Positions 3,438 through 64,000 of a stretch of 64,000 nucleotides of DNA are shown piece after piece. A program made the position numbers and the translations under genes. The notes under the pieces were generated by a model. That model did no database searches. It saw nothing but the letters and a program-made list of their open reading frames with translations, and was not told the origin of the DNA. The DNA comes from Pyrus communis (lineage: Eukaryota > Streptophyta > Magnoliopsida > Rosales > Rosaceae), in assembly GCF_963583255.1 (NCBI RefSeq), contig NC_084814.1:21500762-21564761 (forward strand), in the 5' to 3' direction. The number at the start of each line of letters is the position of its first letter. Position 1 is the stretch's first letter.

Positions 3438-3502
3438 CTCATCTCACTCTCTCACTCTCTCACTCTCGCTCTCTCTCTCCCTCTCGCCCTCTCTCTCTAA
3501 AG
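3438..3502 (+). promoter_or_regulatory. CT-rich leader upstream of chloroplast EF-Tu
   Basis: A nearly uninterrupted CTCTCACTCTC / CTCTCTCTC tract ends 13 bases before the EF-Tu ATG. Pyrimidine tracts in core promoters and 5' leaders are common in highly expressed plant nuclear genes for chloroplast proteins. The transcription start was not determined. Confidence 0.45.
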
Positions 3503-3515
3503 ACTCAGTCTTTCC

Positions 3516-4970
3516 ATGGCAATTTCCACAGCAGCAGCTGCAGCTGCAACCTCAGCCTCCTCAAAGCTCACATGCCCATATGCCTCCACAGCCTCCCCAT
3601 CCCCCACAACCTCTTCTTTCTCCATTAGACCTTCTTCCAAGCTAACCCACCTCTCCTCCTCCTTCCTCAACTCCTCCACCATCCTCCACCTCACACCCGC
3701 CTCCACCACCCGCCACCACCGCCGCAACTTCACCGTCAAAGCCGCCAGAGGTAAGTTCGAGCGCAAAAAGCCCCATGTCAACATCGGCACAATCGGCCAC
3801 GTCGACCACGGCAAGACCACCCTCACCGCAGCCCTCACCATGGCCTTGGCCTCCATCGGCAACAGCGTCTCCAAGAAATACGACGAAATCGACGCCGCCC
3901 CGGAAGAGCGCGCCCGTGGAATCACCATCAACACCGCCACCGTCGAGTACGAGACCGAGAACCGCCACTACGCCCACGTCGACTGCCCCGGCCACGCCGA
4001 TTACGTCAAGAACATGATTACCGGCGCCGCCCAGATGGACGGCGCCATTCTCGTCGTCTCCGGTGCCGACGGCCCAATGCCGCAGACCAAAGAGCACATC
4101 TTGCTGGCGAAGCAGGTGGGTGTGCCGAACATGGTGGTTTTCCTGAACAAGCAGGACCAGGTGGACGACGAGGAGCTCCTGCAGCTCGTCGAGTTGGAGG
4201 TGAGAGAGTTGCTTTCTTCCTATGAATTTCCTGGTGATGATGTGCCTATTATTTCTGGATCTGCATTGCTTGCACTAGAGGCTCTAATGGCGAATCCAGC
4301 CATTTCGCGAGGCGAAAATCAATGGGTTGATAAGATTTATGAACTTATGGACTCTGTTGATGATTACATTCCGATTCCTCAGAGGCAGACTGAGCTGCCA
4401 TTTTTGATGGCCATCGAAGATGTGTTTTCGATCACTGGCCGTGGCACTGTCGCCACTGGCCGTGTCGAGAGGGGGAAGGTTAAGGTCGGAGACACCGTCG
4501 ACATTGTTGGCTTGAAGGACACCAGGAACACAACTGTCACCGGTGTCGAAATGTTTCAGAAAATTCTCGACGATGCCATGGCTGGTGACAATGTGGGGTT
4601 GTTGCTTAGGGGTATTCAGAAGATTGATATCCAGAGAGGGATGGTTTTGGCCAAACCCGGGACTATTACCCCGCATACCAAATTCGAGGCGATAGTGTAT
4701 GTGTTGAAGAAGGAAGAGGGGGGCAGGCATTCACCGTTCTTTTCGGGTTACAGGCCGCAGTTTTACATGAGGACTACTGATGTCACCGGGAAGGTGACTT
4801 CGATTATGAACGATAAGGATGAGGAGTCGAAGATGGTGATGCCTGGCGATCGCGTTAAGATTGTGGTCGAGCTGATTGTTCCGGTGGCCTGTGAGCAGGG
4901 GATGAGGTTTGCTATCAGAGAAGGAGGGAAGACTGTTGGAGCTGGTGTTATTCAATCCATTATTGAGTGA
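3516..4970 (+). CDS. TUFA: Chloroplast translation elongation factor EF-Tu (nuclear-encoded)
   Basis: Intronless, 484 residues. Residues 1-75 form a Ser/Ala/Thr-rich chloroplast transit peptide ending near [11 protein letters not shown]. The mature protein starts at [17 protein letters not shown], which contains the G1 P-loop [15 protein letters not shown] (switch I), [12 protein letters not shown] (G3), NKQD (G4) and [10 protein letters not shown] (G5) follow, then EF-Tu domains 2 and 3 with [12 protein letters not shown] and a C-terminus rich in [21 protein letters not shown]. It delivers aminoacyl-tRNA to the plastid ribosome with GTP hydrolysis. All catalytic motifs are intact and the length is normal. 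The ATG follows a CT-rich leader and the stop is at 4968-4970. The 5' half, up to about 4200, is strongly C-ending at third codon positions, while the 3' half is not. Confidence 0.97.
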
Positions 4971-12097: not shown

Positions 12098-13860
12098 GGG
12101 ATGAACTGATATTTTCTTTGAACAAATACTAGGAAGGACTTAGCCCAAAGTTTGAGAATTGTGAAGAGATCCAACATTAGAATGGGCCAAAGGTGCTCAT
12201 GGTAGGGGGATATCACTAGCCTTGACAAAAAAGGAAGCTAGGAAATCTTTTCATGGATATCTAAGACCACTTTGGACATATTTTTTCTAGGCAGATACTA
12301 TTGTTTTGTGTGGATTTGATTTGATTTGAGGGACAAGTGGACAATCATTAGGGAGAAGTCATGGCCTTTTGGCAATTGTATGTCTCTTAATTTGCTAACA
12401 CTAAAGCTTTAAGCTTTCATAAAGACACATTTTTAGTTTTTTTTTTTTTTTTTAATTTACATGGACCAATGAAGATATGGATATGTTAATTGTCCCTTGA
12501 TCTGCTGCCTCAATTTGTTCAAACTTAAAACAGAAAGAGAGTGGGACCGACAAAAGGCCAAGCTAAAGTCATTCTAACTATTTACCTTTTATGAGGATAG
12601 AACTTTAGACCAATAAGGCTACAAACAAGGCGGATATTTTTTTTTTCACCATTTTTAAATGATGGTAATATTCATTATCTTATTAATCATCGTTGAATGA
12701 GTTTTAAATTTTGAGATATGTGTAGTGGATCGGTACAAATATTAAAATTTAAACTCATCCAATAATAATAAAGGAAAGTAGTAACATTTCTGCCAGATTT
12801 CATGATATCATGATTCCTCCTCATTCCTCACTTCAATTATTCATTATTTCCCATCATTTAGTTAGTAAGAAAAAAAGAGTAAAGAAAGAAGAATATGATT
12901 ATAGTACTCAAGAAAGCTTCATTAGCAGACTGATGGTCAATAGTCTACCTATGCTTTTCAAATCGGGATGCTATGCTCAATCTGTGCATGGTAAACAATT
13001 TCTACACCATTTTTCCTCTCCCTTTATGTACACATGTTTAACATTTTTCTTTGATTTTATTTGAGGAGCAACGGCATTGTTGTTTCTTTGTGACCGACAG
13101 GTTATTGGTTCAAGTTGTGTAAACAACCTCTTTGCAAAGTAAGGGCAAGACTCTCTCTTCGATTCCCGCAAAGCGAAAAACGTTACTAGCTTGTTTCTCG
13201 TATATAAAAATGGTGTGATGAACAGTGGTTCTAACGTCCAGAGGGAACCAGCACCAACCATTGTGGTAAATCTGACAAATAGGCCCCAAAACCTAGAGGA
13301 CCATCACTCATCAGATGTCAAACTTGAGTTCCCCTAGCAATGGAACGTATGACATGTCCTTTCCTTTAGGGATAATGCTTGCATCACTGTGTGAATGCAA
13401 GTATCTCATCCTTTACAAATAAGGTATTTTTACCGTATACATTTCATATTGGAGCTATTTAATTTCTTAATATACATTTGAAGATTATCCCTACAAAAAT
13501 CATTCGAATCATTTAAAGGCTTTCGTGTGGAAAATACATTTTCTTGTAGTGGAAAGCTATTCAAAAACCAGGCAGCACTTCAAAGTTTATCAGTCTCTTC
13601 TGGACTTCTGGGCTGTGCACTCTTCAATACTAATATTACAAATGGAAATGGAAATGAGTTTCTTCAAGACTTTTGTTGGGTCTTACTCCAGTTTTCTTTA
13701 GATTTTTACCAAAACATATGAACACCGTACTATTTTTGGTCGCAGTAGAGATACGTATAACTAAATTACATGAATATATATACCATATAGGCTAGTAATT
13801 TGAAATCTAGCTCAAATCCAACCCTAAGAGAATGCTAAAGCTATTAATTCTTATTCTACA
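12098..13860. other. Gene-free AT-rich DNA
   Basis: Poly-T/poly-A runs (12428, 12630) and chance ORFs only. No recognised protein, RNA gene or bounded element. Confidence 0.4.
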
Positions 13861-13868
13861 TAATATAT

Positions 13869-13870
<2 letters not shown>

Positions 13871-13916
<46 letters not shown>

Positions 13917-13922
13917 GACTGC

Positions 13923-13963
<41 letters not shown>
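13871..13963. repeat. Compound (AC)n-(AT)n microsatellite
   Basis: A run of about 30 bases of CA repeats is followed by two blocks of TA repeats separated by GACTGCATAGTGCA. Likely length-polymorphic. Confidence 0.9.
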
Positions 13964-13965
<2 letters not shown>

Positions 13966-14129
13966 CAACTGCAAAGGCATAATTGAGACTAGGTCTTTTC
14001 ATTACACATCCGTACTACATTAAATCTTACAAGAGAATGAAATATGAGAGCCTGACGGCATCATCATATATAGAATATATTTGCTGCATAAACTCAAAAC
14101 GAAAAAACCTAAAAAAACTAGAAATCAAA

Positions 14130-14500
14130 AGGAAAAAGAAAAGAAAGAAATAAAATAAGGTGATTGATCGGACCAGGAGAGCTTCATTCCCCAGTTAATG
14201 GATGCTATATATCCATTATATCACTCTTGGCTTGGAGAGACCCCAAAGTTCTTTAAATGGCAGTTCCAAGAAACACCCATCTCTTGAAATTGAGGAAGAA
14301 ATTAACCCTAATTTGGTTTCAGTACTGCACTGGAGCACCAAATATTTCAGAAACAGTTCCAACATCGTGATCATGGAGAGAGAAGATGTGCAGTCGAGTG
14401 AGAGTAAGAAAGAAGGCAGCAGAGTTAGAGAAACTCATAGAATATGTTCACATGGTACACACACACATATATATAGATGGACGTATAAATAGCTATATCT
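14130..14500 (-). ncRNA. Candidate small non-coding RNA gene carrying a miR166 target-mimic site
   Basis: On the minus strand, TATA-like sequences (CTATATATATAAC near 14518-14506, then CTATTTATACG near 14490) precede a moderately GC stretch of about 300 bases. That stretch differs from its AT-rich surroundings and contains no long ORF. It ends with the miR166-complementary site at 14192-14168 and then pyrimidine-rich sequence. Known target mimics such as IPS1/At4 have the same plan: a short, capped, poorly coding RNA with one bulged miRNA site. The transcript limits are inferred, and expression is unknown. Confidence 0.5.
14168..14192 (-). promoter_or_regulatory. miR166 endogenous target-mimic site (4-nt bulge)
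   Basis: The plus strand reads TCGGACCAGG, then AGAG, then CTTCATTCCCC. The first and last blocks are exactly positions 1-10 and 11-21 of the conserved plant miR165/166 family (miR166). A minus-strand RNA therefore pairs with all 21 miRNA bases and carries a 4-nt bulge (CUCU) opposite the cleavage position (10/11, or 9/10 by a one-base shift). This is the geometry of target mimicry: binding without slicing. A 21-of-21 match by chance in 64 kb is negligible. Confidence 0.8.
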
Positions 14501-14529
14501 AGAATGTTATATATATAGAGCTTTACATC

Positions 14530-15538
14530 AGGGAGAGAGAGAGAGAGAGAGGTGAAATATTGTGAAGCACGCATAGTGTGGACTGTGGAAGTGTGGACAT
14601 CTTATATTCCCGCATGCAGGTTTCTTCTCTTTAAGAACAGTGCTATAGGGCACGTTTCCACAGGGAAAAAGGAACACCCAACAAACAAAAAGGGGGACGA
14701 CACACACACTGGTCACTGTGGACTGTGGAGGCAAATGTGTGTGTGTGTCTAATTTTTATCGTGGTTACATTTTTGTGAAGGCAAAGCAAAGTAGCAAACT
14801 TAAAGCATGATACATTGGTGCCCGTAAGGTGGGGCTAGCTAGCTCCCTAACCTTTGAAAAAGGGTCTTTATCTATGTACAGGTGTTTGAATTTTTGGCTC
14901 TTTCTCCCTTTTATCTTTTGGTCGGTTCATATCGAAAAGGGTTATAATTTTCTTTTTGTGTTGCCTTTCATATGCTTTTGTGGTTTGATTTAGGTTTACT
15001 TTATTTTCAACATCTTATGAGATTAAGTTAAATATCAGAAATTTAGCGTAGTTTGTGAAGTTGGTTTGACCATCAAAACTTCGTTAACGCACATTTAATT
15101 AGACCAAGACTAATTATGTCTTACCATGTGCAAATTGGTTGTTAACATTCTTCTTCCCCAACCTGCATTTCAGTATAAGAATTATTGTATAGTGGGGTTA
15201 ACTGCATTGTTAAGTGTAAATATACCGTCATCTTATGATATTGACAGATATAACGATTTTACCGTTGATAAGATTGTGCCAAACTTGGCAGCGTATGTAA
15301 ACTTGTAAATTGTAACTAAATAGGTCATTAAAGTGATTTATGGGTGATAAAGCCTAAGCCAAATGAGATATGTTGTTAGAAATCTGTTTGAAACATCTTC
15401 GATTCCGGATTAACAAAATACATTCTAAGTTTCTAACAGTCAGCCACCAATTAATTCTAAGCCACAAAACCCTTGTTTCCGTTGTCAGAACAAATTGGTT
15501 TCTGCATGAAAGCTGTTCACCTTGATTTTAGCTATAAC
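14530..15538. other. Region upstream (minus sense) of the mimic candidate; gene-free
   Basis: Contains a GA/CT run (14533-14552), two copies of the GTGGACTGTGGA motif (14578 and 14719) and short GT runs. It is possible promoter sequence for the minus-strand RNA. No protein gene was recognised. Confidence 0.4.
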
Positions 15539-16800
15539 TGTTGATCCTAAAAATTACAAAGCCTACGTGGCGCGCAGGCCGAGTAACTAATAAGCTAACT
15601 ACGTCCTTCGGTTGAATGCGGGGCGTGCCAACTCGTCGGCCGAGCTCGGCCGAGGAGTAAAATTTGTTGATGTTGCGTTGAGCGCGTTGTTGACTTCTTT
15701 ATCTTGCGACTGCGGCCGAGGAAGGAACAAATCTCGGCCTTTGGATTCTCGAGCCTGAAGACAAGGCTGCTAGTTCTACGAAGTTCAATATCAAATTCAG
15801 CTCTCAAGGTGCCGAATGTAGTAACCTGGTAACACCTCACTTCGCCGAGAAGGCTAATGAGATGACCTCTGCCAATAAGGATTTGAAAATCCTTCTCGAC
15901 CGAGACTTGGATAGATAACCAGTCGGCCTCGACGCAGTGCTGTTTATCCAAACTGAAGGTGCTTCGGGAACGGCTGATTCTACGGCAACAGTGCTGTTTA
16001 TCCAAACTGAAGATGTTCGCCGGTTGCCTTCACAGTGCTGTTTATCCAAACTGAAGATGTGTCGGCGGAAAAAAGAAAATAAAAAATCTCAAGATGTTTG
16101 AGAGGTTTTGCGCGGGGCAGTTGGGTGTTGAATTCGAGGTCCCTTGAATGATGCCCGTTGCACTGTATTTATAGTCTTGAATACCCAAGCCGTGCAAACC
16201 AATCCTAATTGCATTGTGACTCTGAGTCCTTATTTGTTGATGCTGACCACGCACTTATCCCAATCATAATCACTATAATTAAATAAAGCTCTGAAAACTT
16301 TATCTCATATGCATATAAGTCCACGCCTAATCACCTTAACCAAAGCTTGAACCCATCTTTTCCATCCTGACCTTCCAATTCAATCCTATTTGCGCCATCA
16401 CCATCATTCAAAATCCACGTGATGCAGTCCCACTTTAACTCTGCATCTTGCATGCAATCCCACCTTTTCCTGGATGTGATAATGCATGCAATTTCATTAA
16501 CCCCATTTAATTAAAATACTTGGCATCCTGCCAAGATACTCGGTGGCTATGATTCTTCCATATCTACACATGTTGTTTGAACTCTTCCGTGCTTGAATTA
16601 TTAGAAGATAATCTCCTAATATGCTTAAAATGGGCTCACCAAATTTTTTAGAAATAATTTTCTTAATAATTCGCCAGATAACATTGTGATTATTAAAATC
16701 ATAATATTATCTAGACAATCTTCCAATCCAATGGCTCAGAATTTTACTCATTCTACGGTCTCGATTGCTCAGGCCGATAGTGTAAAATCGGGTCCAAACA
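15539..16800 (-). mobile_element. Solo LTR of a retrotransposon, perfect 5-bp target duplication
   Basis: A 1,262-bp element with TG...CA ends: TGTTGATCC on the left, and CCAAACA on the right, which reads TGTTTGGACCC on the minus strand. It is flanked by identical ATAAC duplications at 15534-15538 and 16801-16805. A minus-strand TATA box (CTATAAATACAGTG, about 16160-16175) and the downstream leader give its orientation. GC is locally high compared with flanks (CGGCCGAG motifs). No second LTR or internal region is present, consistent with unequal LTR recombination. Long minus ORFs here (15595-16254) are frames through the LTR, not genes. Confidence 0.88.
15935..16056 (-). repeat. Three copies of a 24-bp motif inside the solo LTR
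   Basis: Identical 24-mers beginning CAGTGCTGTTTATCC start at 15935, 15989 and 16033, separated by unequal spacers (30 and 20 bp). They lie just downstream of the inferred LTR transcription start, in the R/U5-like region. Confidence 0.85.
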
Positions 16801-17479: not shown

Positions 17480-18631
17480 TGCTCACGTAATATAAAAAAT
17501 GTCTTTCATGTGCGGATAATAATGTGATTAAATAAGTTATCAAATGATTGTTTTTTTTTTTATGTAACAAACAATATTATCTACACTAAAGGGAGGGGGT
17601 GGGCTTAGTCTCACAATGGATTAGCAATAATGTGATTCGATCAGTTGTTTATTAAATATTATTTTCTCTATTTTTAAACATGTTCAAAACATCGTAAGAA
17701 GCGTGTAATGCCTGTTATAAAAACGGTCTTTCACATGCGGATAATAATGTGATTAAATTAATTGTCAAATGATTTTTTTTAACACACGATATTATCTACA
17801 CTAAAGGGGAGATGGTTAGCTTGGCCTCACAATGGCTAACAATAATGTGATTCAATTAATTGTTTATTAAATATTATTTTCTCTATTCTTAATGTAAATT
17901 CTATAGAAACCGATTTTATTATCTAAATTCAGCTGCTTTAATTGGTTTATGAGAAGTTACTTCTAGCATGATCTAAAATTATTTATTTACTTCAATATTT
18001 GACTTTTCTTTTGTCAATACAACGATAAACAGTGTTTTAATATTTTACTATTTAATGTACATTGTTAAACAGTTTTTTAATATTTAACTTTTTCCTGTAT
18101 AGTTTTTATTTTATTTATTTATTTTTTATTTTTATTTTCTTAATAATTAGTACCTCACAATGAGTGATTCAATCAGTTGTTTATTAAATATTATTTTCTT
18201 TATTTTTAAACACGTTCAAAATATCTTAAGAGGCATGTAGTACCGGTTATAAAAAAAAGGTATTTCTCACGCGCATAACGCATAATTAATTCTTTTTGTA
18301 TACTTTTTTAATATAAAAACATTTAAAAAGTGTAAGTCCATCGTAGCACACCGTGTTTTTTTATTTTTTGTTTTAATAATTAATACCTCACAATGAGCTA
18401 GCAATAATGTGATTTAATCAGTTGTTTATTAAATATTATTTTCTCTATTTTTAAACACGTTCAAAATATCTTAAAAGGCATGTAGTCCCGGTTAAAAAAG
18501 ATCTTTTGCACTCGCATAACGCATAATTAATTCTTTTTGTACAATTTTTTTTAACTTGTAAGTTCATCGTAACACGCCGTGGTTCAAAAAATATATTCTG
18601 CACGTGCGTGACTGGCGTGCATGAAGGCTAG
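17480..18631 (+). mobile_element. Helitron-like non-autonomous element with internal tandem repeats
   Basis: At least four degenerate units share AATAATGTGATT, CAGTTGTTTATTAAATATT and TTCAAAATATCTTAA with a TGTAGTACCGGTTATAA-like end. Units begin near 17505, 17720, 18155 and 18385, at about 215-235 bp spacing. The right end has a short GC-rich palindromic stretch (GCACG...CGTGC) followed by GAAGG and CTAG at 18628-18631, with T next. This is the 3' terminus expected of a Helitron (hairpin, then CTRR, inserted before T). The same terminus recurs inverted at 36919. The 5' end (TC) was not located, so the left border is approximate. Confidence 0.45.
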
Positions 18632-18935: not shown

Positions 18936-20175
18936 GAGGTTCAATATTTTCTTATGTGAAACTCCCTTTGTTAGTTAGTGTGTCTATATTTGTCCTGACA
19001 ATCGCTTGACACACACCCCTCTAAAGATAAGAACAACCATTCTGTCAAGTTTGCTATTGAAAAACGAATAAAAGGACTACCGTTGTTATGTTGCGTGAGT
19101 TCCCTACTCGATCCTTTCCGCGGTTCCACCGTCCTCTTTTCTCCTATAAACACCCGCCACGTGTATTCAGACTCTGCAGAACTTCCCGCACGCCGTTGAG
19201 AAAAAAGGGTGAGTTGCCGGTTCACTTTTATATCCGACACGACTTGGCGTGAAAGAAAATCAAGGTGCGGCCCAGGTGAAGAAATTTTTCATTGCGATGG
19301 AATACAAGTAATACATCACGTGTTATTATATAAATGATGAAAATTTTAATTTTTTTAAGTTATTAATTTTTTAACACACATATCTTACTATTTGTATAAT
19401 GACACTTTGTATACCATCCCGTATTTCGATCACATTGAAAAATTTCTTTCCTAGGTGACCGTTCTTACAACATTGGTGGGTCCCTACTTGTGAAGGTCCT
19501 ATATAAAGTTGAGAAATTTACACAAATGGCAGGTAGACTTTTTAATTTCTGTGTTTTTACCCCCGAAACTAGAAGAGGTTACAATTGACCACTTTCACTT
19601 AATATGTTTTGACAATATTTCACTTGCGTCCAATTCTATGCCAAAATTAACCTGTGTCCAATTCAACCCACAATTTTGTTACGTATAATCATGTGACATG
19701 TACGATCCAATTGTTTGAAATCGTTTTTAGTTAAGGAAGGTAACGTATATTTGATTGGTCCTCAATTCTACGGGATGAGCGCAAAATGAATGTAGATGGT
19801 ATGTTGTCAAAATAACTGAATAAGGAAATTGACCTTCGAAGTTGGTTTGTGCAATTAACGTCCTCGAATTTTAGAGGATGAGTGCAAATGAATGTGAGTG
19901 GTATATTGTCAAAAGTAACTGAAGTCCGGTCATTGTATAAAAGTGGAAAAGTATGTTCCAGTTTTGCAATTTTCTCATAAAAGTACCATGGTCCCTATTT
20001 GGGTTGTGAAAAGCCCATGGATTCCCATTTGGGCCCATCAACATATGACGCAAGAGAAAATAACTTGCAAGTCCACAGTTGACCCAATTATATTCGGGTT
20101 GGCCCGGAAAATGCTTAAACCCTGGAAATCCCGTCAATGTCTCTGTAGGTTGTCCCAGTGAGAAGTTTGGCAGCC
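18934..20175. other. PPR gene upstream region
   Basis: No gene recognised. It contains a MITE (19274-19458) and an imperfect direct repeat of about 90 bp (about 19765-19820 and 19865-19925; shared GGATGAGTGCAAATGAATGT-type sequence, then GTATATTGTCAAAA and TAACTGAA). Confidence 0.45.
19274..19458. mobile_element. MITE with AAGAAATTTTTCA terminal inverted repeat
   Basis: Left AAGAAATTTTTCATTG is inverted at the right as CATTGAAAAATTTCTT. The interior shares TACATCACGTG, AAGTTATTAA and TTTTTAACACA with a second copy at 36428-36605. AGGTGA flanks both ends (19274-19279, 19453-19458) and may be the target duplication or part of the TIR. Confidence 0.6.
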
Positions 20176-22137
20176 ATGAATCGAGCAATGGCGGCGTTTC
20201 TCACTACCCGCCGATTCGCCAACTCGCTCGCGGCGGCTCAGTTCGACGTCATAACTCGGCCGCTTTATTCTCAAGTGACTCATTCCTCTCACCTCTCTCG
20301 CTTCCTTTCAAATCAATCCCACTGTCATTCCCATTTCCTCAACACCCATCAAAAGCTCTTCTTTTCCTCGACCCCCAACTCGGTCCTGCAACTCGTTCTG
20401 GCCAACAAGTGGTCTGCCGAGTTGGAGACCGAGTTGTCCGAGTCGTACCCATCACTAACCCACGATGTAGTAATCTATGTTTTGAAGAAATTGGATAAAG
20501 ACCCACGAAGGGCTTGGGATTTTTTCAATTGGGTCTGCGAGAAGAACGGATTTAGGCCGAGTTCTTCGGTGTTTAGCTTAATTCTTAGGGTTTTAGTGCA
20601 TAAGAGCTCGATGATGGAGTTTTGGATTGCTTTGAGGAAGATGAAAGAGCAGGGGTTTTTCATCGATGAGCAAACTTATGTGGCAATTAGAGAACAGTTG
20701 AAAACGGGGAGGATGGATAGTGATGTCGTGGCTTTCAAGCATTTTTACCAGAGGATGATCGAAGATAACGCGGTGGATGATGTTGTGAAGAGCGTGGTGG
20801 ATGTTGTTTCGGGGTCGGATTGGAGTGATGGGGTTGAAAAAGAATTGGGGGAGCTCAAAATTGAGTTATCTGATAATTTTGTTGTTAGGGTTTTGAAGGA
20901 TCTTAGGAATTACCCGGTGAAAGCGTTGAGGTTTTTCCGTTGGGCTGGTCAGTGTTCTGGTTATGAACACAATACAATTACATACAATGCAGTTGCGAGG
21001 GTTCTTGCAAGGCCTGATTCGATAGGGGAGTTTTGGAGTGTGATTGAGGGGATGAAGGGTGCAGGTCATGAGCTGGATTTGGACACCTATATAAAGATTA
21101 CGCGGCAGTTTCAGAAGAGCAGGATGATAGAGGACGCGGTGAAGCTGTATGAGTTCATGATGGACGGCCCTTATAAGCCCTCTGCTCAGGATTGCAGCAT
21201 GCTTTTAAGGAGCATCTCAGGGAGTGATAAACCGGATCTGGATATGGTGTTTAGAGTTGCAAAGAAGTTTGAGTCTGCAGGGAATACCCTCTCCAAGGTT
21301 GTTTACGATGGGATTCACAGGTCTTTGACAGGCGCAGGCAGATTTGATCAAGCGGAGGAAGTTATGAAGGCTATGAGAAATGCAGGGTACGAGCCGGACA
21401 ACATTACATACAGCCAATTGGTCTTTGGACTTTGTAAGGCCAAGAGACTTGAAGAAGCCTGCAATGTGTTGGACGAAATGGAAGCAGACGGATGCGTTCC
21501 TGATATCAAGACTTGGACCATTTTGATTCAAGGGCATTGCGCCGCTGATGAAGTTGACACGGCGCTGATTTGTTTCGCAAAGATGATGGAAAAAGGCTGT
21601 GATGCGGATGCTGATCTGATGGACGTCTTGATAGAGGGGTTCCTTAAGCAGAGGAAGATAGATGGTGCATATAAACTGCTTGACGAAATGGTGAAAAAAG
21701 CTCGTTTAGTACCGTGGCAAGCCACATACAAAAATCTAATCGAAAAATTGTTGGAGGTCAGAAAACTCGAAGAAGCATTCAAACTTCTTCATTTGATGAA
21801 GAAACAGAACTACCCACCTTATTCAGAACCGTTTGTCCAGTATATATCGAAGTTTGGTTCTGTGGAGGATGCTGCAGACTTTTTCAAAGCATTGACTGTT
21901 AAGGAACATCCGTCATCTGCAGCGTATGTCCATGTTTTGAAAGCATTCTTTAAGGAAGGTAGATACTCCGAGGCGAAAGATCTGCTTCATAAATGCCCTC
22001 ATCATATTCGAAAGCACGGTGAAATTTGCAAACTTTTTGGTTCTACGGCAGGCAAGCTGAAGCAGATTACTACAGAAGATGAAGGCAAGCGGAAGCAGAC
22101 TACTACCGAAGACAAGCAGAAGCGGACTACTACTTGA
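20176..22137 (+). CDS. Pentatricopeptide repeat (PPR) protein, P class, probably mitochondrial
   Basis: Intronless, 653 aa from the first in-frame ATG (20176); the frame stays open upstream only through a GTG. The N-terminus MNRAMAAFLTTRRFANSLAAA is Arg/Ala/Ser-rich with no acidic residues, as in mitochondrial presequences. Degenerate PPR motifs cover about residues 85-310. Canonical ones follow, for example PDNITYSQLVFGLCKAKRLE then EACNVLDEMEADGCVPD, about 400-470. No E, DYW or SMR domain is visible. P-class PPR proteins bind organelle transcripts and act in intron splicing, stabilisation or translation. It resembles the plant family with a WDFFNWV...GFRPSSSVFSLILRVL N-terminal block, but its target cannot be read from sequence. 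The C-terminus carries three Lys/Thr-rich repeats (KQITTEDEGK, KQTTTEDK, KRTTT), unusual for the family. Confidence 0.93.
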   Translation: MNRAMAAFLTTRRFANSLAAAQFDVITRPLYSQVTHSSHLSRFLSNQSHCHSHFLNTHQKLFFSSTPNSVLQLVLANKWSAELETELSESYPSLTHDVVIYVLKKLDKDPRRAWDFFNWVCEKNGFRPSSSVFSLILRVLVHKSSMMEFWIALRKMKEQGFFIDEQTYVAIREQLKTGRMDSDVVAFKHFYQRMIEDNAVDDVVKSVVDVVSGSDWSDGVEKELGELKIELSDNFVVRVLKDLRNYPVKALRFFRWAGQCSGYEHNTITYNAVARVLARPDSIGEFWSVIEGMKGAGHELDLDTYIKITRQFQKSRMIEDAVKLYEFMMDGPYKPSAQDCSMLLRSISGSDKPDLDMVFRVAKKFESAGNTLSKVVYDGIHRSLTGAGRFDQAEEVMKAMRNAGYEPDNITYSQLVFGLCKAKRLEEACNVLDEMEADGCVPDIKTWTILIQGHCAADEVDTALICFAKMMEKGCDADADLMDVLIEGFLKQRKIDGAYKLLDEMVKKARLVPWQATYKNLIEKLLEVRKLEEAFKLLHLMKKQNYPPYSEPFVQYISKFGSVEDAADFFKALTVKEHPSSAAYVHVLKAFFKEGRYSEAKDLLHKCPHHIRKHGEICKLFGSTAGKLKQITTEDEGKRKQTTTEDKQKRTTT

Positions 22138-29118: not shown

Positions 29119-30133
29119 TGTCACACCCCGAGCCCGAAAATATTAATTTCGGGAAATGATATTGGTGACAGCCCAAAAACGTTGCTTTATTTCGCAGAAT
29201 TTTAAATCACGATTCTTTATTTAAATTCCTTAACTCCCTCTCAATAAACATAAACATAAACATAATTAATTTATAAGGTTAATTCTCATTTTATTTACCA
29301 ATTTCCTTTTCTTTGTACCAATTCTCAACAAAGGATTTAATTCGATTATTTAAGGCTGCATCTAACACAGTTAGACTGCCTACGTACCCTGGAACGGGAT
29401 CAAGCCTTTCGCAGTTCACCTTTCCATAAATTCAAACCAAATCCAAATATATTCATTTAATCCCACATATACCACAATCGTATTAATATTCAAACCATAG
29501 CAATTAGGTCTCAAAAGCATAATTAGAATAACGAAGTTCGCATAAAAACACAATGTCGGCTCCCTGGTGGCGGTCGGCCGCCCCGGCTTACCGAAAAGTT
29601 CAACTATTTCTAAAAATTCTCAAAAATTACAGAAATGAAGATCTCAAAGAGTAGAGCAAACTTTATACCTACAGCCAAGTCCAATTTGGCCTGAAAATGC
29701 TCCAATTTGCCTCGAACTCACGGGAAACCCTATAATTTAGGTGACCTCGATCCATGTCCTCCGTTGTTCCACCACCCCATCCAAGGCTTGGGACATGTTC
29801 TTTGGTTCACAAGGAGTCCATTGATAGTGGTGGTGGTCGGATTTGGCTTCAGAAAACGGCGGATTGCCGCCAAGGAGCTCTGGTGCACCCCGCACCCACC
29901 ATGCTAATTACACGATTTCCATAGCCTCTTATCTTGAGTTTTTGGAGTGGATTGGGTAAAGGGGAGGTCGTGAAATGATTTCCCAAGGTTTGATCGACGT
30001 GATTCGCCGGGAAACCAATGAAAACCACCGGAGAAGATGAGGAAAATGGGTCGGATCGCTGGGTCCATGTGATCCAGTGTTCCCCCATCTCTATCCCTTT
30101 CCTCCTGGTTCTCTCCTCCCATTGGTCACCCCC

Positions 30134-30164
<31 letters not shown>

Positions 30165-30561
30165 TCCTTTCTTCCTTTTCTCATTTCTATTCTTTCCTTT
30201 CAATCACAGTCGTCCATCACTCATTTTTTCTTTCATCACAGCCACACACGTGGCACAGCTCATTGCTCCAGATTTTCTGGAGCCTTCTAAAATGGAGTAA
30301 AATTACCCAAATATCCCTGACTTTAAACGTTAATAACTTTTTCGTTATAAATCCGTTTCACGAACGATTTTCACCTACGTGCTCGTAGGATCATCCTCTA
30401 TCCAAATATGTCAAGAGATATGCCAAAATATATGAAGATAAAATACATTACCATATAATTACGTTAAGCCAACTAGTCGCATTTAACTTCTCACAACCAT
30501 AAATCGATTTATTTTCGATTTTCTCCACATATTCATATCTTTAAATTTTCAGGGTATGACA
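29119..30561 (-). repeat. 3' LTR (minus sense) of the non-autonomous element
   Basis: Begins TGTCACACCCCGAGCCC and ends GGGTATGACA. Compared with the partner LTR it lacks about 90 bp after CTAGTCGCATTT (30480), a deletion between short TTT repeats. It contains a C18-type homopolymer at about 30129-30156. Confidence 0.9.
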
Positions 30562-30571: not shown

Positions 30572-32234
30572 GTTAAAATAAATCTCGTCCCCGAGATTTC
30601 AACCACCAAGTTACGAAAATAAATTAAAACTAATTCCACTATTTCTTTTATGGTGAATATAATTATAATCTCAGTCTACAATTTTATTCAAGCTCCGGAA
30701 ATAATTAAACCAACGAATAGTAATCGTGATTCTCACTCACACTCTCAAATTCTCAGCCACATTCATTGGCAAAATAAGTATAAAAAATTCTAACCATGCC
30801 CAATGGCAAAATAAATATCCACATTAAGCCAAAATTTCTCATGGCCTCCGTTGGCTATACACAGCCGTTACCACAATTGTTCTTCTAATTTTTTTTTTTT
30901 TTTACCACCATTATTAACGATACCAACAAAAAAAATACTCAATATTGGCAGCATACATATTATAAATTTCCAGCCATAACTATTTTCAGCCAATTTAATA
31001 TCAAAATTCGAAGTCATCCATTAGTAACCTAGTAGAATCTCAAAATTTCAAGCCAAAGCTTTATAATTGACAAACCGAATATCAAAAATTTCAACCAAAT
31101 TCATTGGAAATTCCCAATCACACTCACTGATTAATGGAAAGAAGATTAAAGCCAAATTCCAAACACCACTAACATAAATTCTCATTCTATGATTCCTTTC
31201 ATTTTCGCAATTAACTAAATTGCCCATGGTAAAAATTTAAAGCCTTTTAAATCTTTCTTTCAATTGCTTTTCTTTTTAATTTACTTCAAAGTGCAGCCAC
31301 AATTATAATAAATGAGTGACTCACTCTTTCAGAATGCCATTCACATTTCATCAATTAAAAGAGAAAATTGAAATATGTAACACTCTATTAACCAACAAAA
31401 ATAAACCTTATTTATCACATAGCCACAAGAATAAGTGCTCGTCCTCAACTTGGTTCGCAATAACCAATTCAACAATGACAATTTATAACTGTGGTAACCA
31501 AACCCATTGAAATTAAATTTACAAACTTCTCCATCAATTCTAGCTGTAATCGTCAGTGGCTAAGTAAATATCACAATATCAAACCAAACCACTAAAATAG
31601 ACCTTAGCAAAAATTCCAACCAAAACCATAGTCATTATTTTGGTAAGAAAATAAAAAGAAGTATATGAACATGTTGTCATGAACCCACACAACACCCCCA
31701 AATTTGTCACGATACCACATACTTATTTTGGCATGTCAAGAGGCAACAAATTGTGTAGAAAATAGAGCATCAATGAATCTCTTTTAACTAAGAGTGGTCC
31801 AATAATTTCCTCTTACATTTACAAATCTAAAGGCAAATCCCAAGCCGTGACTATCATGGCTAACAAAATATCATAATTTCATGCCATAATTCCTCTTATT
31901 TTAAATGAACTCAAATTTCATTCCATAATTTCATTCATATCCACCCACCATTCTCATTATAATGGAAAACCATAATCACAGTTTGTAATTTCATTCCCCT
32001 TCAACAAATCACCATATCTTCCACAAATATTAACATTTCCAACCACATTTATTGTTGGCCATAACATTTTAAAATTTCTATCTACACTTATCATTGACAA
32101 AACAATGATTTCACCATCATTTTCTTTTATTTCAATTAGTGACTAGTAGGCTGGAAAAGATTGTAATATACCTGGCCAATACACATCACACTTTCTTTTT
32201 CTTTTCTTCTTCTATTTTTTTTTTTTTTGGTCCT

Positions 32235-32931: not shown

Positions 32932-34454
32932 TGTCACACCCCGGGCCCGAAAATATTAATTTCGGGAAATGATATTGGTGACGGCCTAAAAACTTTGCTC
33001 TATTTCGCAGAATTTTAAATCACAATTCTTTATTTAAATTCCTTAACACCCTCTCATTAAACATAAACATAAACATAATTAATTTATAAGGTTAATTCTC
33101 ATTTTATTTACCAAATTCCTTTTCTTTTTACCAATTCTCAACAAAGGATTTAATTTGATTATTTAAGGCTGCATCTAACACAGTTAGACTGCTTACGTAC
33201 CCTAGAACGGGATCAAGCCTTTCGTAGTTCCCCTTTCCAAAAATTCAAACCAAATCCAAATATATTCATTTAATCCCACATATACCACAATCATATTAAT
33301 ATTCAAACCACAACAGTTAGGTCTCAAAAGCATAATTAGAATAGCGAAATTCGCATAAAAACACAATGTCGGCTCCCTGGCCGTGCGCCGCCGTTGCGGG
33401 TGGCTGTCGGCCGCCTCGACTCGCCAGAAAATTCAACTATTTCTAAAAATTCTTAAAAATTACAGAAATAAAGATCTCAAAGAGTAGAGCAAACTTTATA
33501 CATGTGGCCAAGTTCAATTTGTCCTGGAAAGGCTCCAATTTACCTTGAACCCATCGGAAACCCTATAATTTGGGTGACCTCGATCTATGTCCTCCGGTGT
33601 TCTGCAGCCCCATCCAAGGCTTGGGACATGTTCTTGGGTTCACAAGGAGTCCATTGATAGTGGTGGTGGTCGAATTTGGCTTCAGAAATGGAGGATCGGC
33701 ACCAAGGAGCTCTGATGCACCCCGCACCCACCGTGCCAATTACACGATTTCCATACCCTTTTATCTTGAGTTTTTGGAGTGGATTAGGTAAAGGGGAGGT
33801 CGGGAAATGATTTCCCAAGGTTTGATCGACGTGATTCGCCGGGATACCAATGAAACCACCGGAGAAGATGAGGAAAATAGGTCGGGTCGCTAGGTCCGTG
33901 TGATCTGGTGTTCCCCCATCTCTCTCTCTTTCCTCTCGGTTCTCTCCTCCCATTGGTCAGCCCCCCCCCCCCCCCACAAATTCCTTCATTTTCTCATTTC
34001 TATTATTTCCTTTCAATCACAGCTGTCCATCACTCATTTTTTCTTTCATCCCAACCACACACGTGGCACAACTCATTGCTCCAGATTTTCTTGAGCCTTC
34101 TAAAATGGAGTAAAATTACCAAAATATCCCTGACTTTAAATGTTAATAATTTCTTCGTTATAAATCTGTTTCACGAACGGTTTTCGCCTACGCGCTCGTA
34201 GGATCATCCTCTATCCAAATATGTCAAGAGATATGCCAAAATGTATGAAGATAAAATACATTACCATATAATTACATTAAGCCAACTAGTGGCATTTTCG
34301 TCATTTCCACTTAACAATAATTTTACTACGAAAATTATAATAATTCTCGGAAACAGAACTTTAAAAGTTTTCAATTTAACTTCTCACAACCATAAATCGA
34401 TTTATTTTCGATTTTCTCCACATATTCATATCTTTAAATTTTCAGGTTATTACA
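32932..34454 (-). repeat. 5' LTR (minus sense) of the non-autonomous element
   Basis: Begins TGTCACACCCCGGGCCC and ends GGTTATTACA. It aligns along its whole length with 29119-30561 apart from scattered substitutions and the block at about 34290-34375. Confidence 0.9.
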
Positions 34455-58240: not shown

Positions 58241-60063
58241 ATGTTACAGTTCCCGGGGTTCATGAAACAGTACCCATGGTCAACAAGGACCATTCCGACG
58301 TCGTTTTTGCTTCCAGCCCAATGGCCCCAACCCCACAGCGAGGAGCTCCTCCTCGCCATGGAGGAGTCCGATTTCGAAGAGAAGGTACTTTCCGATACTA
58401 CATATTTTCCCATTTTCCCATTTGCATATCTAATTTTACTTTATGCATTTGTACGAATTGCCCCTGATTTAAAGCTAATTGAAATTTTAATCCAAAGAAC
58501 AAAGAGGGAAATGCTCCAATGGCTGGAAATTTTGAAAAAAAAAAGACCCTAATTTGAAAGTTTGAAGCCTAATGAATTCTAATTTTGAAAGAAAGGACCA
58601 TAATTTTGTGAAATTGTAACTAAAGTAACCATTTTTATTGTTATCACCGTTTGAATTGGCTTAATGTGAAGTATTTGGATGTTGGAGGATTGAATTATTT
58701 CCTCTTTCATTTGTGCTAGTTTTCGTGGGAAATTCTTAATAGGGTAAGATATGCTTGTAAAGCTTTGAAAGTTTTTGTTTGGTTACTAGGGTTCACCTTG
58801 TTGAAAGTTCCTTCTTTTAGTGCTCTAAAATTCGAAACGTTTCGGTTTTTATTCCTGTAAGCTGTGTGAGCTCTACTGATGATCAGATTTGCATTACGAT
58901 ATGTTTATTTTGGTCACTTTTTCGTCTGTTGGTGTAAGAGCTAGGTTAAGTTATGAAAAACTAAGAAAGTTGGATTATTTTGAGACTTGTTAGCCTTGAT
59001 GCCTGTTTACTGGATTCAAATTCTTGTTGCTATGTATGTCTCGTTCGGAGGCTGTAATTCTCCGTTTTGAATCTGAACGTTACATGTTGGTGCTGGTGAA
59101 TCATGTCACTCCTGTGGGGGAAGGACAAAAGACAGCATCCCGACATAGCATTAGAGTCCAGCAGCTAGAAGAATGGACACTACTCGATGATATTTTCATT
59201 AATTCGGTAAGGGAGTCAAAGTTGTAGGTTTTTGAAGTGAGGGAGACCTCCAGGTTTCGGGATTCCAATAATAGAAGTGAGTTTCGTTTAACACATGTGC
59301 GAGTTACATGAGTCCCTGACCTTAGGAATTCACAGAAAATTTAGGTTTGCATTTTGGTGTAAATTTTGATCATGATGTGCTATTTCAAATTATTGTGAGT
59401 TAGAGGCTGCTTGAAAAGTGTAACAAACCAAAAGGGTGGACGTATGTTTGACATTTTTTTATTTCATCCAAGTTTTATGCCTATCAGAGTAAACAAAACC
59501 TCGAGGAAAAAGACTAGTCGAGTAATTTGAAGTGTATTCTTTATACGACACAACACCTTGATGACTTCAGCGATATCTTCCACTAAGCGAACTGGGTTTC
59601 TTACCCTGATTTCCAGTAGCTATTCTATCTTTTGAGAAAAGATTTTGCTTAAATCTAGAGATAGCTAGGGTTTGGAATTAAGTGGGACAGCCTAGTTCTT
59701 CCGAGAGTTGGGTGCAATCCCAAATGATATACCTCAAGTCGCCTGGAGACGATAATATAAGTTTAGGCACATTTTTGCAGTTTGTTTGATCCGTGTGTAT
59801 TTTTAAGTATCTAGAAACTACATTTGAGGGCAGTTATCTTCCTTTTCTTCTTTATGTTGGCTTACTACCATTAGCATTTATAATTTCTTACGAGGTAATT
59901 TTTGCAGTGCAACGAAATCAGAAAGAGTAGCAGCAGCATGGCTGTGATTGGGAAAACTGCTGTCGACAACGATAAAGAAGACTACGACAATGATCCCGAC
60001 GATGACGACGTAGACAATGCAGAGGACTCCGAGGGGGAAGAGTTTGAGCAGGAAACCAGTTGA
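58241..60063 (+). CDS. Small acidic protein of unknown function (99 aa)
   Basis: Two exons, 58241-58384 (48 codons) and 59908-60063 (51 codons plus stop), separated by a 1.5-kb intron. The N-terminus is MLQFPGFMKQYPWSTRTIPT, then SFLLPAQWPQPHSEELLLAM. The second exon gives CNEIRKSSSSMAVIGKTAVD followed by an acidic tail of Asp/Glu (about 25 of the last 35 residues) ending FEQETS. The first ATG in frame (58241) is used; upstream codons are open but lack ATG. No membrane or signal segment. The acidic tail suggests a histone- or nucleic-acid-associated role, but no family is recognised. The second exon is partly duplicated at 62730. Confidence 0.72.
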
Positions 60064-61812
60064 AATTGCTGACTTCCCTCGTTCTGTTTCTGTTTGGACG
60101 ACCACAAACCTACATCGAATGCGGCTTTAAGTTCTTTACGCATATCATCATACATTATCTTAAACAAATTTGCTGAATTGTGCGACTTCTCTCTATGGAT
60201 AAAGATAAAGCTTGTGCCTTTTGTGTTTCTCTGTCCTCTTTCATGGTCCTTAATTAGTACTAAAACATATCCGTATTCATGCTTGTCAAAAAGAAAAAGA
60301 AAAAGGAAAAGAGATAATTCAAGAAGGTAGTGTCTTCAACTTATGAGCCGTTCAAACCTTTTTACTTCAGGATAAGAACTTCCATGAAACGAGTTTGCCG
60401 CTACGTAGCGTCATGTATCCAATAATACATTGATAAGTGCAAGCTTTTCTTGACATGACAATATATTATTACAAGAGACACCACGTGACGGTAGACTCAT
60501 TTCATATAAGTTGCTCCCTAAGTTTAGATGTATGTACTAAAGATATTGTTAATATGTGTTAATGGAGTTTCAATGGATTAGGTAGATGGGCAGCTCCCGG
60601 AAATTTGATTTTTGTTGCCCTTGCGGAGAGGCGTTGGAGGATGTTGGTCCAACAGTTGGGGATGACTTTCAAACCCGTATTCGACACGGTATGTTTTGAG
60701 TTAAATTATTAACGCTGGTAAACATGCGATGGTGGTCAGAACGAGATTGAAATGTGAGTCTTCCCAGCACCAGACTATCGTGACAAAACCTTTAGATGAT
60801 CTTTTTTGTATAAAATAGGTAAATTGCTTAGATTAAATTTTTCTTTGCAAGAATTATAATACTTAAAAAAATAGACAGTTAGCTGAAATTAGTTATCACT
60901 TCCTTTGAAACTATTCATTAAGTCAAATAGTTCAAATTAGTCTATTTTCTTTTATGCATATATACGAATTGCCCCTGATTTTGAGCTGAGTGAAATTTCA
61001 ATCCAAATGACATAAAGGGAAATGCTCCAATGGCCGGAGATTTTGAAAAAAAGGGACCCTAATTTGAAGTTTTGAAGGCGAATAAAGTCTAATTTTGAAA
61101 AAAAAAGACCCTAATTTTGTGAAATTGTAACCAAAGTAACAATTTATTTTTTATCACCATTTGATTTGGAGGATCGAGTTATTTTCTCTCTTTTCTTTTG
61201 TGCTAGTTTTTGTGGGAAATTCTTCGTAGGGTAAGGTATGCTTGTAAAGCTTTGAAAGATTTTGTTTGGTTTACTTGGATGCACCTTGTTGAAAGTTTCT
61301 TCTTTTGGTGCTCCAAATTTTGAAACGCTTCGGTTTTTATTCCTATAAGCTGTGTGAGCTCTACTGATGATCAGTTGGTGCTCCAAAATTCAAAACGTTT
61401 CGGTTTTTAATCCTATAAGCTGTGCGAGCTCTGCTGATGATTACGAAACGTTTGTTTTGGTCACATTTTTTGTCTGTAGGTGTAAGAGCTAGGTTAAGTT
61501 ATGGACAACTAAGAAAGTTGGATTATTTTGAGACTTGGTAGCCTTAATGCCTGTGTACTGGATTCAAATTCTCGTTGTTATGTATGTCTCGTTTGGAGTC
61601 TGTAATTCTCCGTTTTGATTCTGAACATTATATGTTTGTGGCGGCGAATCATGCCACTCCCGTGGGGAAGGACACGGGACAGCATCCCAACATAGCATTA
61701 GAATCCAGCAGCTCGAAGAATGGATTCGGGATTCCGGAAATAGAAGTGAGTTTTGTTTAACACATGCGTGAGTTACATGAATGCCTGACTTTAGGAATTC
61801 CCAGAAAATTCA

Positions 61813-62408
61813 GGACCCGTTTGGTATTCTATTTGAAATTTTTTATCATTTCTCAAAACATTTCTTAAGAACATTTATTGAAAACAATTTTATTTAAGAC
61901 TCAAAAATTTAATTGGTTTGCGATTTAAAATTTTTAAATATTACGACTTAAACTAGACAAAAAGATCTGAAAAGAGGGAATCACAGGAAAAGGAGAAAGA
62001 GAAGTGATGAGGAAAGAAATTAAGAGATGATTGAAGGAAAGAGGAAGAAGGGAGAGGATCTGAAGAGATAAAGAGGAAGAGGAGAGAGAAAAAACCGAAA
62101 GAATGAAAATGATTGGAGAAGACACGAAAAAGGTAAAAAAAAAAAAGAGAGAAAGAAGAAGAGAGAGAGAGAGAGAGAGATTTGAAGTGAGAAGGGAGGA
62201 TTGAGGGAAAAGAAATGAGTGAGTTTAAGTTAAAAAAAAATCTAAAAACTCACTTTTTATGTTTTTAGATAATAGACTATATTTTTTTAGTTAGTCTTAA
62301 GTTCAGTTTTTTAAAATAATTCTACCAAACAAGTTTTTAAGGCCTAAAATTTGAAAATTGTTTTTGAATTTAAAAAGTTTGATTCAAGTAGAATACCATA
62401 CAGATCTC
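61813..62408. mobile_element. MITE-like element inserted only in duplicate copy 2
   Basis: Absent from the matching place in copy 1 (59338). The ends ACCCGTTTGGTATTCT, then ATTTGAA, are inverted at the right as TTCAAGTAGAATACCATAC. The interior is A- and G-rich with GA microsatellite (62160-62180) and no transposase. Confidence 0.65.
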
Positions 62409-62729
62409 TACCTCCATATTTGGTGTAAATTTTTGTCATGATGTGCTTTTTCGAATTTTTGTGAGTTAGAGCCTGCTGGATAAGTGTAACAAACCAAAAG
62501 GGTGGAAATATGTTTGAGAACTTTTTTTGCTTAAATCCAAAGATGGCGAAGGTTTGGAATAAGTAGTAGGATCCCCAGAAGGCAAACGTCTCATGGGGGA
62601 CAGCCTTGTTCTTCCGAGAGTCGGGTGCAATCCCACCTGATCTACCTTAAGTCGCCTGGAGACGATAGGTAAAGGCACTTGTCTTTCTGTTCTTCTTTAA
62701 GTTGGCTTCTTATGAGATAATTTTTGCAG

Positions 62730-62788
62730 TGCAACGAAATCAGAAAGAGTAGCAGCAGCATGGCTGTGATTGGGAAAACCGCTGTCGA
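62730..62788 (+). pseudogene. Truncated duplicate of the acidic-protein second exon
   Basis: Preceded by the same TTTTTGCAG acceptor, it repeats TGCAACGAAATCAGAAAGAG through GGGAAAACCGCTGTCGA. It then jumps to sequence that in copy 1 lies about 430 bp downstream (near 60380). The acidic tail, stop and 3' leader are deleted, and no exon 1 is present in this copy, so it cannot make the protein. Confidence 0.85.
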
Positions 62789-64000
62789 TGGAACGGGTTT
62801 ACTGCTACGTGATATTCCGTATCCAATAAACATTGACAAGTGCAAGTTTTTCTCGACATGATAATGTATTATTGATCGGAACGCCACGTGACGGTGAACT
62901 CATTTCATGTAAATTGCTTTCTAAGTTTAAAGATGTACTAAAGATATCGTTAATATGTGTTCATGGAGCTTCAATGGATCAGGTAGATGGGCAGCTCCCG
63001 GAAATTTGATTTTTGTCGCCCTTGCGGGGAGGGGTTGGAGGACGTTGGTGATAAAATTTGATTTGTTGCAGTTATTTAGTATTATAGTCTGGTATTTTTT
63101 TATATATAAGTGACGGGTCTTAGGTTTGAATCTCTTTAATGACGAGTACCATACCAATTATTCCTTATAGTAATAGAGAAAACATAGGATCATTGACTGC
63201 TCGTGATATCAACTCTTGGTTTAGTGTTTGTTTTGACAAAGTTGATCAGGTAGATGATAACTATTTGTTGGCCAACTCTATACTTCATCTAAACAATCAA
63301 AACCAAGTTTCAATCCATATATTACCTGTACAAAATTTTATCCCAAGCCAAATGTGATTGAGACAAATCACCGAGGGATGATCTAATAGTTGCGGACGAA
63401 TTCCAAATCTATGTTTCATACAGCACGTTCTGATCGAGTTCAATTACTGGCTCTGGTAAATCACGCGATAGTGGTCAGAAGGAGGCTGAAATGTGAGTCT
63501 TCCCCATAAGGATGGACTGTCGTGGGCAAGGCCACCAAATGGTCTCTTTTGGATAAAATAGGTAAATTGCTTAGATTGAATTTTTCTTTGCTAGAATTAT
63601 ATATGAATAGATACTTAAAAAATAGATAGTTTAGATTGGTGTAAAATGCAAATTATATATGAATAGATACTTAAAAAATAGACAGTTTAGATTGGTGTAA
63701 AGCTAGTATTTAACAAATTGGATGGAAATATCGATATGTAAATTTGTGAAAATATCCATGAATATATCAAATATTGATATTGATATAGGTTGCTTTTGAA
63801 GGAAATGATGAAAATTTAAAATGAAACTTTAGGAATTGTCAAACATTGATTTGAACGAAATATAAGCGTTTCTCTGATATTTAACAGTTCTGTCATAATT
63901 ATGGATGATATATATCAATTTTAGTCTAAACTTAAGAATTTTGGTTATCACTTCCTTGAAACTATTCATCGAGTCAATAGTTCAAATTAGTCTAAAATAA

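Follow-up and report, generated by a model that had tools for sequence, protein, structure and literature searches.

A candidate target mimic of miR166 with a four-nucleotide bulge in intergenic DNA of pear

The microRNAs miR165/166 set the dose of the HD-ZIP III factors, and these in turn shape leaves, meristems and vasculature. A preliminary description of a 64-kb stretch of Pyrus communis DNA (the window, 64,000 nucleotides) pointed to a short minus-strand sequence that is complementary to miR166 on both sides of a central bulge. The locus was proposed to be transcribed as an unannotated intergenic RNA that would serve as a sponge for miR166. Does this sequence act as a decoy, is it what remains of something else, or is it an accident of base composition?

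The site and its predicted pairing

The plus strand at positions 14168-14192 reads TCGGACCAGG-AGAG-CTTCATTCCCC, and the minus strand GGGGAATGAAG-CTCT-CCTGGTCCGA. The miR166 letters used for matching the site are also printed in a table of a paper on melon (PMC7003419). The site can be divided as follows:

14168..14192, minus strand: candidate site of miR166 mimicry, with every one of the 21 miRNA bases paired and a 4-nt bulge (sequence and predicted pairing)
14182..14192, minus strand: 5' block GGGGAATGAAG, predicted to pair with miR166 positions 11-21
14178..14181, minus strand: CTCT bulge facing junction 10/11, where slicing would occur; the 9/10 reading shifts it by one base in the 3' direction
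14168..14177, minus strand: 3' block CCTGGTCCGA, predicted to pair with miR166 positions 1-10

When calculated with RNAduplex, the miR166:site duplex has an energy of -37.2 kcal/mol and all 21 bases are paired around a single 4-nt bulge. Sequence and calculation thus agree with the pairing originally described, which comprised all 21 miR166 bases and one CUCU bulge of 4 nt on the minus strand. An unbulged perfect miR166 site would reach -44.1 kcal/mol, so that the bulged site attains 84% of the optimum, while an HD-ZIP III-type target gives -37.4 kcal/mol with miR166 and is level with the bulged site. The corresponding value for miR165 and the bulged site is -33.3 kcal/mol. Opening of the site was calculated to cost 10.1-10.7 kcal/mol across three assumed transcripts, against the -37.2 kcal/mol of the duplex. 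The bulge had been placed at 10/11 or 9/10, and this placement holds, as a bulge after miRNA position 9 or 10 leaves no mismatch while one after position 11 leaves a single mismatch. Sequence comparison also bears out that the site has the form of the miRNA complement and differs from the HD-ZIP III target form. No second miR166 site was found within the 64-kb window, where the only other trace is one half-site with one mismatch at 31989-31999.

Genomic setting and putative transcript

An EF-Tu gene is found at 3501-4967. The minus strand has Di19-like exons at around 7.0-7.7 kb; their Pfam scores are 20.3, 20.6 and 26.8 against cut-offs of 29, 27.5 and 27.5, and such scores below the cut-off might be expected of a gene split by introns. 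A Di19-like start (MDADLW...) is found at about 9.19 kb. When all six frames were searched, 6.9-12.0 kb gave Di19-like Pfam matches only, all below the curated cut-offs, and there was no Pfam match at E<=0.01 from about 9.19 to 20.1 kb, nor in a search of 16.7-20.1 kb. On the other side of the site the frame 20149-22134 encodes a PPR protein, the orthologue of At3g48250, that has 98% identity to one of Malus domestica (95% query coverage) and 80-82% identity to Prunus proteins. The site was described as intergenic, and the nearest recognised coding sequences are indeed about 5 kb (the Di19-like start) and about 6 kb (the PPR reading frame) away. This exceeds the 200 nt from neighbouring genes used as a strict eTM criterion, with the reservation that genes lacking a Pfam domain would escape. 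The surroundings therefore contain no recognised gene, which is not the same as no gene.

A repeat origin of the site region was considered and rejected, since positions 13600-15099 have no match elsewhere in the window except for one A+T-rich microsatellite stretch. Repeats are found in other parts of the window. A short unit on the minus strand at 15840-16098, read as SLDKQHC or VWINST depending on the frame, recurs several times; it is probably a non-coding repeat that has diverged. On the way from the site to the PPR gene, 17491-18550 contains a cluster of diverged repeats, both direct and tandem, with lengths of about 60-190 bases (one has a tandem period of 215), and the PPR coding frame has at its 3' end roughly two copies of a 33-base tandem repeat (22050-22126). 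A sequence beginning with TGTCACACCCCG is present twice in direct orientation, at 29119-30561 (about 1.44 kb) and 32932-34454 (about 1.52 kb). The copies share 90% identity along most of the sequence and are separated by about 2.4 kb. The DNA here is strongly skewed, with a GC skew between -0.2 and -0.4 at 30-36 kb, no Pfam match was found in five of six frames, and the pair looks like a non-autonomous LTR element. Serial direct matches of 81-96% identity between 58429-60858 and 60941-63601, offset by about 2.4-2.8 kb, represent a local duplication.

If the site is transcribed, two features of the minus strand are of interest:

13990..14450, minus strand: hypothetical short transcript, its ends guessed from weak motifs
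14216..14374, minus strand: longest ATG reading frame, 52 codons, which stops 23 nt before the site and is probably not a gene

The motifs in question are TATA-like sequences at 14473-14475 and 14513-14517 and an AATGAA at 14003, all on the minus strand. As TATA-like and poly(A)-like signals these are weak, and motifs of this kind are cheap in DNA so rich in A+T. Six reading frames of 15-52 codons were listed for the hypothetical RNA. A homologue search for the 52-codon frame found no candidate sharing three common 5-residue words, and the same was the case for the plus-strand frame 14202-14489. A frame of 20 codons (14125-14187) overlaps the miR166 site; ribosomes translating it might clear the site, and this counts against a mimic. 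The hypothetical RNA folds no better than shuffled sequences (z = +0.74, with 75 of 100 shuffles folding at least as well).

From the sequence we consider it moderately probable that the site is an endogenous target mimic (eTM) of miR165/166 of the IPS1 type. A short and probably non-coding minus-strand transcript would then be made, perhaps from around 14450 to 13990, and would pair with the full 21 bases of miR166 loaded in AGO. With 4 nt bulged out at 10/11, the cut site would stay unpaired, so that the RNA would not be sliced and the complex would be retained. This would lower the amount of active miR166, and possibly its total amount, and the HD-ZIP III mRNAs would be expected to increase. 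The transcription, stability, abundance and effect of the mimic are what we infer, and the same applies to the proposal that the locus gives rise to an unannotated intergenic RNA acting as a miR166 sponge.

Coincidence, relic or decoy

Someone who reads genomes searches millions of intergenic bases, and the bulge rules leave some freedom; both could in principle produce a convincing site by coincidence. The numbers argue strongly against this. The window contains one bulged miR166 match, while none of 100 dinucleotide shuffles contained any. Markov models of order 0-3 predict, for one bulge length, 5e-9 to 1.2e-8 matches per 64-kb window and 5e-5 to 1.3e-4 (of the order of 1e-4) per 0.7 Gb, the approximate size of an apple genome. 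In a prokaryote collection of 257 Gb the two halves 1-8 nt apart match once, and that match spans 29 bases and so has an 8-nt bulge; viral contigs gave no match to two halves separated by 1-8 nt, and both collections may lack records near the source genome. Both strands of the window were also scanned with 26 miRNAs, allowing a bulge of 1-6 nt and up to four mismatches and demanding perfect pairing at positions 2-8. Two places were found, the miR166 site and a miR159-like site on the plus strand at 60981-61007. The latter has a 6-nt bulge and four mismatches, a quality that is also reached by shuffled miRNAs. For comparison, the 26 miRNAs were shuffled 200 times, and with bulges restricted to 3-5 nt these control sets gave 119 matches, of which 103 had four mismatches, 14 had three and two had two, while none had one or zero. 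The improbability of the site is thus shown, like its sequence and predicted pairing. A chance origin of the miR166 pairing is very unlikely, and we give next to no credence to the site being a pure coincidence of sequence. This leaves a working decoy and a relic as the two readings to be weighed.

The plus strand carries the miRNA-sense sequence, and the site could in principle belong to a MIR166 gene. A MIR166 hairpin was not found on the plus strand, whose folding was equalled or bettered by 189 of 200 shuffles. Rfam mir-166 is absent from the 26 matches obtained at E<=10 in 13800-14800, although the 4-nt insert could hide a short relic from such a search. Of these weak matches, all below the gathering scores, 24 fall on a CA/TA microsatellite at about 13854-14018 and the others at 14337-14455 and 14466-14544. 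Of two miR166 star sequences compared with 13868-14492, neither gave a better match than shuffled versions did. A MIR166 precursor is not supported, for want of a foldback, a star strand or an Rfam mir-166 match. Neither an HD-ZIP III domain nor any other Pfam domain was found in the six frames of about 12.0-16.8 kb at E<=0.01; this, together with the miRNA-complement form of the site, also speaks against an HD-ZIP III gene or its relic. Both rivals are thus weakened. With no MIR166 context found around the site, the paired blocks stand alone.

There is still the reading that the site is a non-functional relic, that is, a fragment of an antisense MIR166 or of another miR166-complementary sequence that received a 4-nt insertion by CT slippage and is no longer used. 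Plant genomes carry many MIR166 loci from which such a fragment could have come, the exact miRNA-complement form is what would be expected of an antisense MIR166 copy, the CTCT insert resembles dinucleotide slippage, and a block of miRNA length is all that remains. Against this, neutral decay should strike the 21 bases as readily as the flanks, but 21 of 21 are intact, and a random insertion would land on the slicing junction in only about one to two of 20 places. The flanks hold no MIR166 remnant that could be found while the sole change within the site is at the slicing junction, and the MIR166 foldback, Rfam mir-166 match, star-like sequence above shuffles and HD-ZIP III domain were all looked for without success. 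We regard the relic as unlikely, though the strongest of the rivals. A site that is transcribed might also be part of an intron, or of an RNA that is unstable or retained in the nucleus, and would then not act on miR166. A pyrimidine run is found just 3' of the site together with acceptor-like ends at 14087-14121, and a rough hand-made score gives donor-like sites on the minus strand at 14306, 14466, 14851 and 15124. The nearest upstream donor is, however, weak, and no exon in which a domain or homologue could be recognised was found nearby on the minus strand, making this reading distinctly improbable. As for how an endogenous target mimic could have come about, it may be a decoy of recent origin in the apple lineage, in which a cleavable, perfect antisense miR166 site became a 4-nt-bulge sponge in a single step, through one slippage insertion at the slicing position. 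This is a speculative proposal that we consider rather improbable.

Bulge size and comparison with known mimics

Wu et al. (2013), cited through PMC4274897 and PMC5148581, set strict rules that prescribe a bulge of exactly 3 nt, and according to PMC5148581 the same rule is applied in PeTMbase. The site pairs perfectly at miRNA positions 2-8, its bulge (9/10 or 10/11) lies between positions 9 and 12, and it has no mismatches outside the bulge, where up to three, G-U pairs included, are tolerated, but the bulge is 4 nt. Wider decoy rules accept bulges of 1-5 nt (PMC3121747) or 3-5 nt (PMC3441763), and the 4-nt central bulge with no mismatches falls within them. According to PMC3121747, decoys for an artificial miRNA in Nicotiana benthamiana worked best with 1-4 inserted nucleotides, less well with five and weakly with six to seven, and miR171 was depleted by a decoy with a 3-nt bulge. 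By analogy, the 4-nt bulge of the site is inside the active range of that assay. This largely answers the reservation, made in the preliminary description, that the bulge is 4 nt and not the classic 3 nt (PMC3121747). The site is consequently not an eTM by the strict 3-nt rule, but should work like one.

If the site is a mimic, apple or a close relative would possess a natural decoy and with it a tunable control on HD-ZIP III dose. The site would also be a natural mimic with a 4-nt bulge, of a kind missed by prediction rules and catalogues that accept 3 nt only. In Rosaceae, mimics of miR156 and miR3699 are on record for apple (PMC8215657, PMC12946679) and of miR399, miR319 and miR482 for pear (PMC11891480). 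No miR166 mimic in this family was among the matches listed from the open-access literature, which is not proof of absence.

Close structural parallels are IPS1 and At4, which bind miR399 through a near-perfect site in a non-coding RNA with a bulge at 10/11 (PMC3441763, PMC2908682), as at the pear site. In IPS1 the bulge is 3 nt and the partner miR399, whereas the candidate has a 4-nt bulge, pairs with miR166 and lies in a putative transcript. Mimics of miR166 are reported to be active in Arabidopsis and tomato (PMC6162444, PMC4683531), and have also been reported in citrus and maize. Among them, ath-eTM166-1 (Wu et al., 2013; via PMC6162444 and PMC4683531) resembles the candidate in its miRNA and in having a mid-site bulge. 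Overexpression of this RNA altered leaf shape, and the likeness to the candidate is by description only. Long non-coding RNAs that mimic miR166, as the candidate would, are slylnc0195 in tomato and csi-eTM166 in citrus (PMC4683531, PMC8215657 and PMC8861278). These two come from RNA data, whereas the candidate is known from genomic sequence.

Pairing on either side of an insert is likewise the principle of STTM165/166. The artificial MIM165/166, as described in PMC2908682, also pairs on either side of an insert that is left unpaired where the miRNA would cut, and the candidate follows the same principle. In Arabidopsis, MIM165/166 gave rounder leaves and cup-shaped young leaves (Todesco et al.; PMC2908682), and by analogy this is the kind of effect expected of a strong decoy. 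Both MIM165/166 and STTM165/166 are designed transcripts with 3-nt bulges, whereas the candidate is a natural sequence with a bulge of 4 nt.
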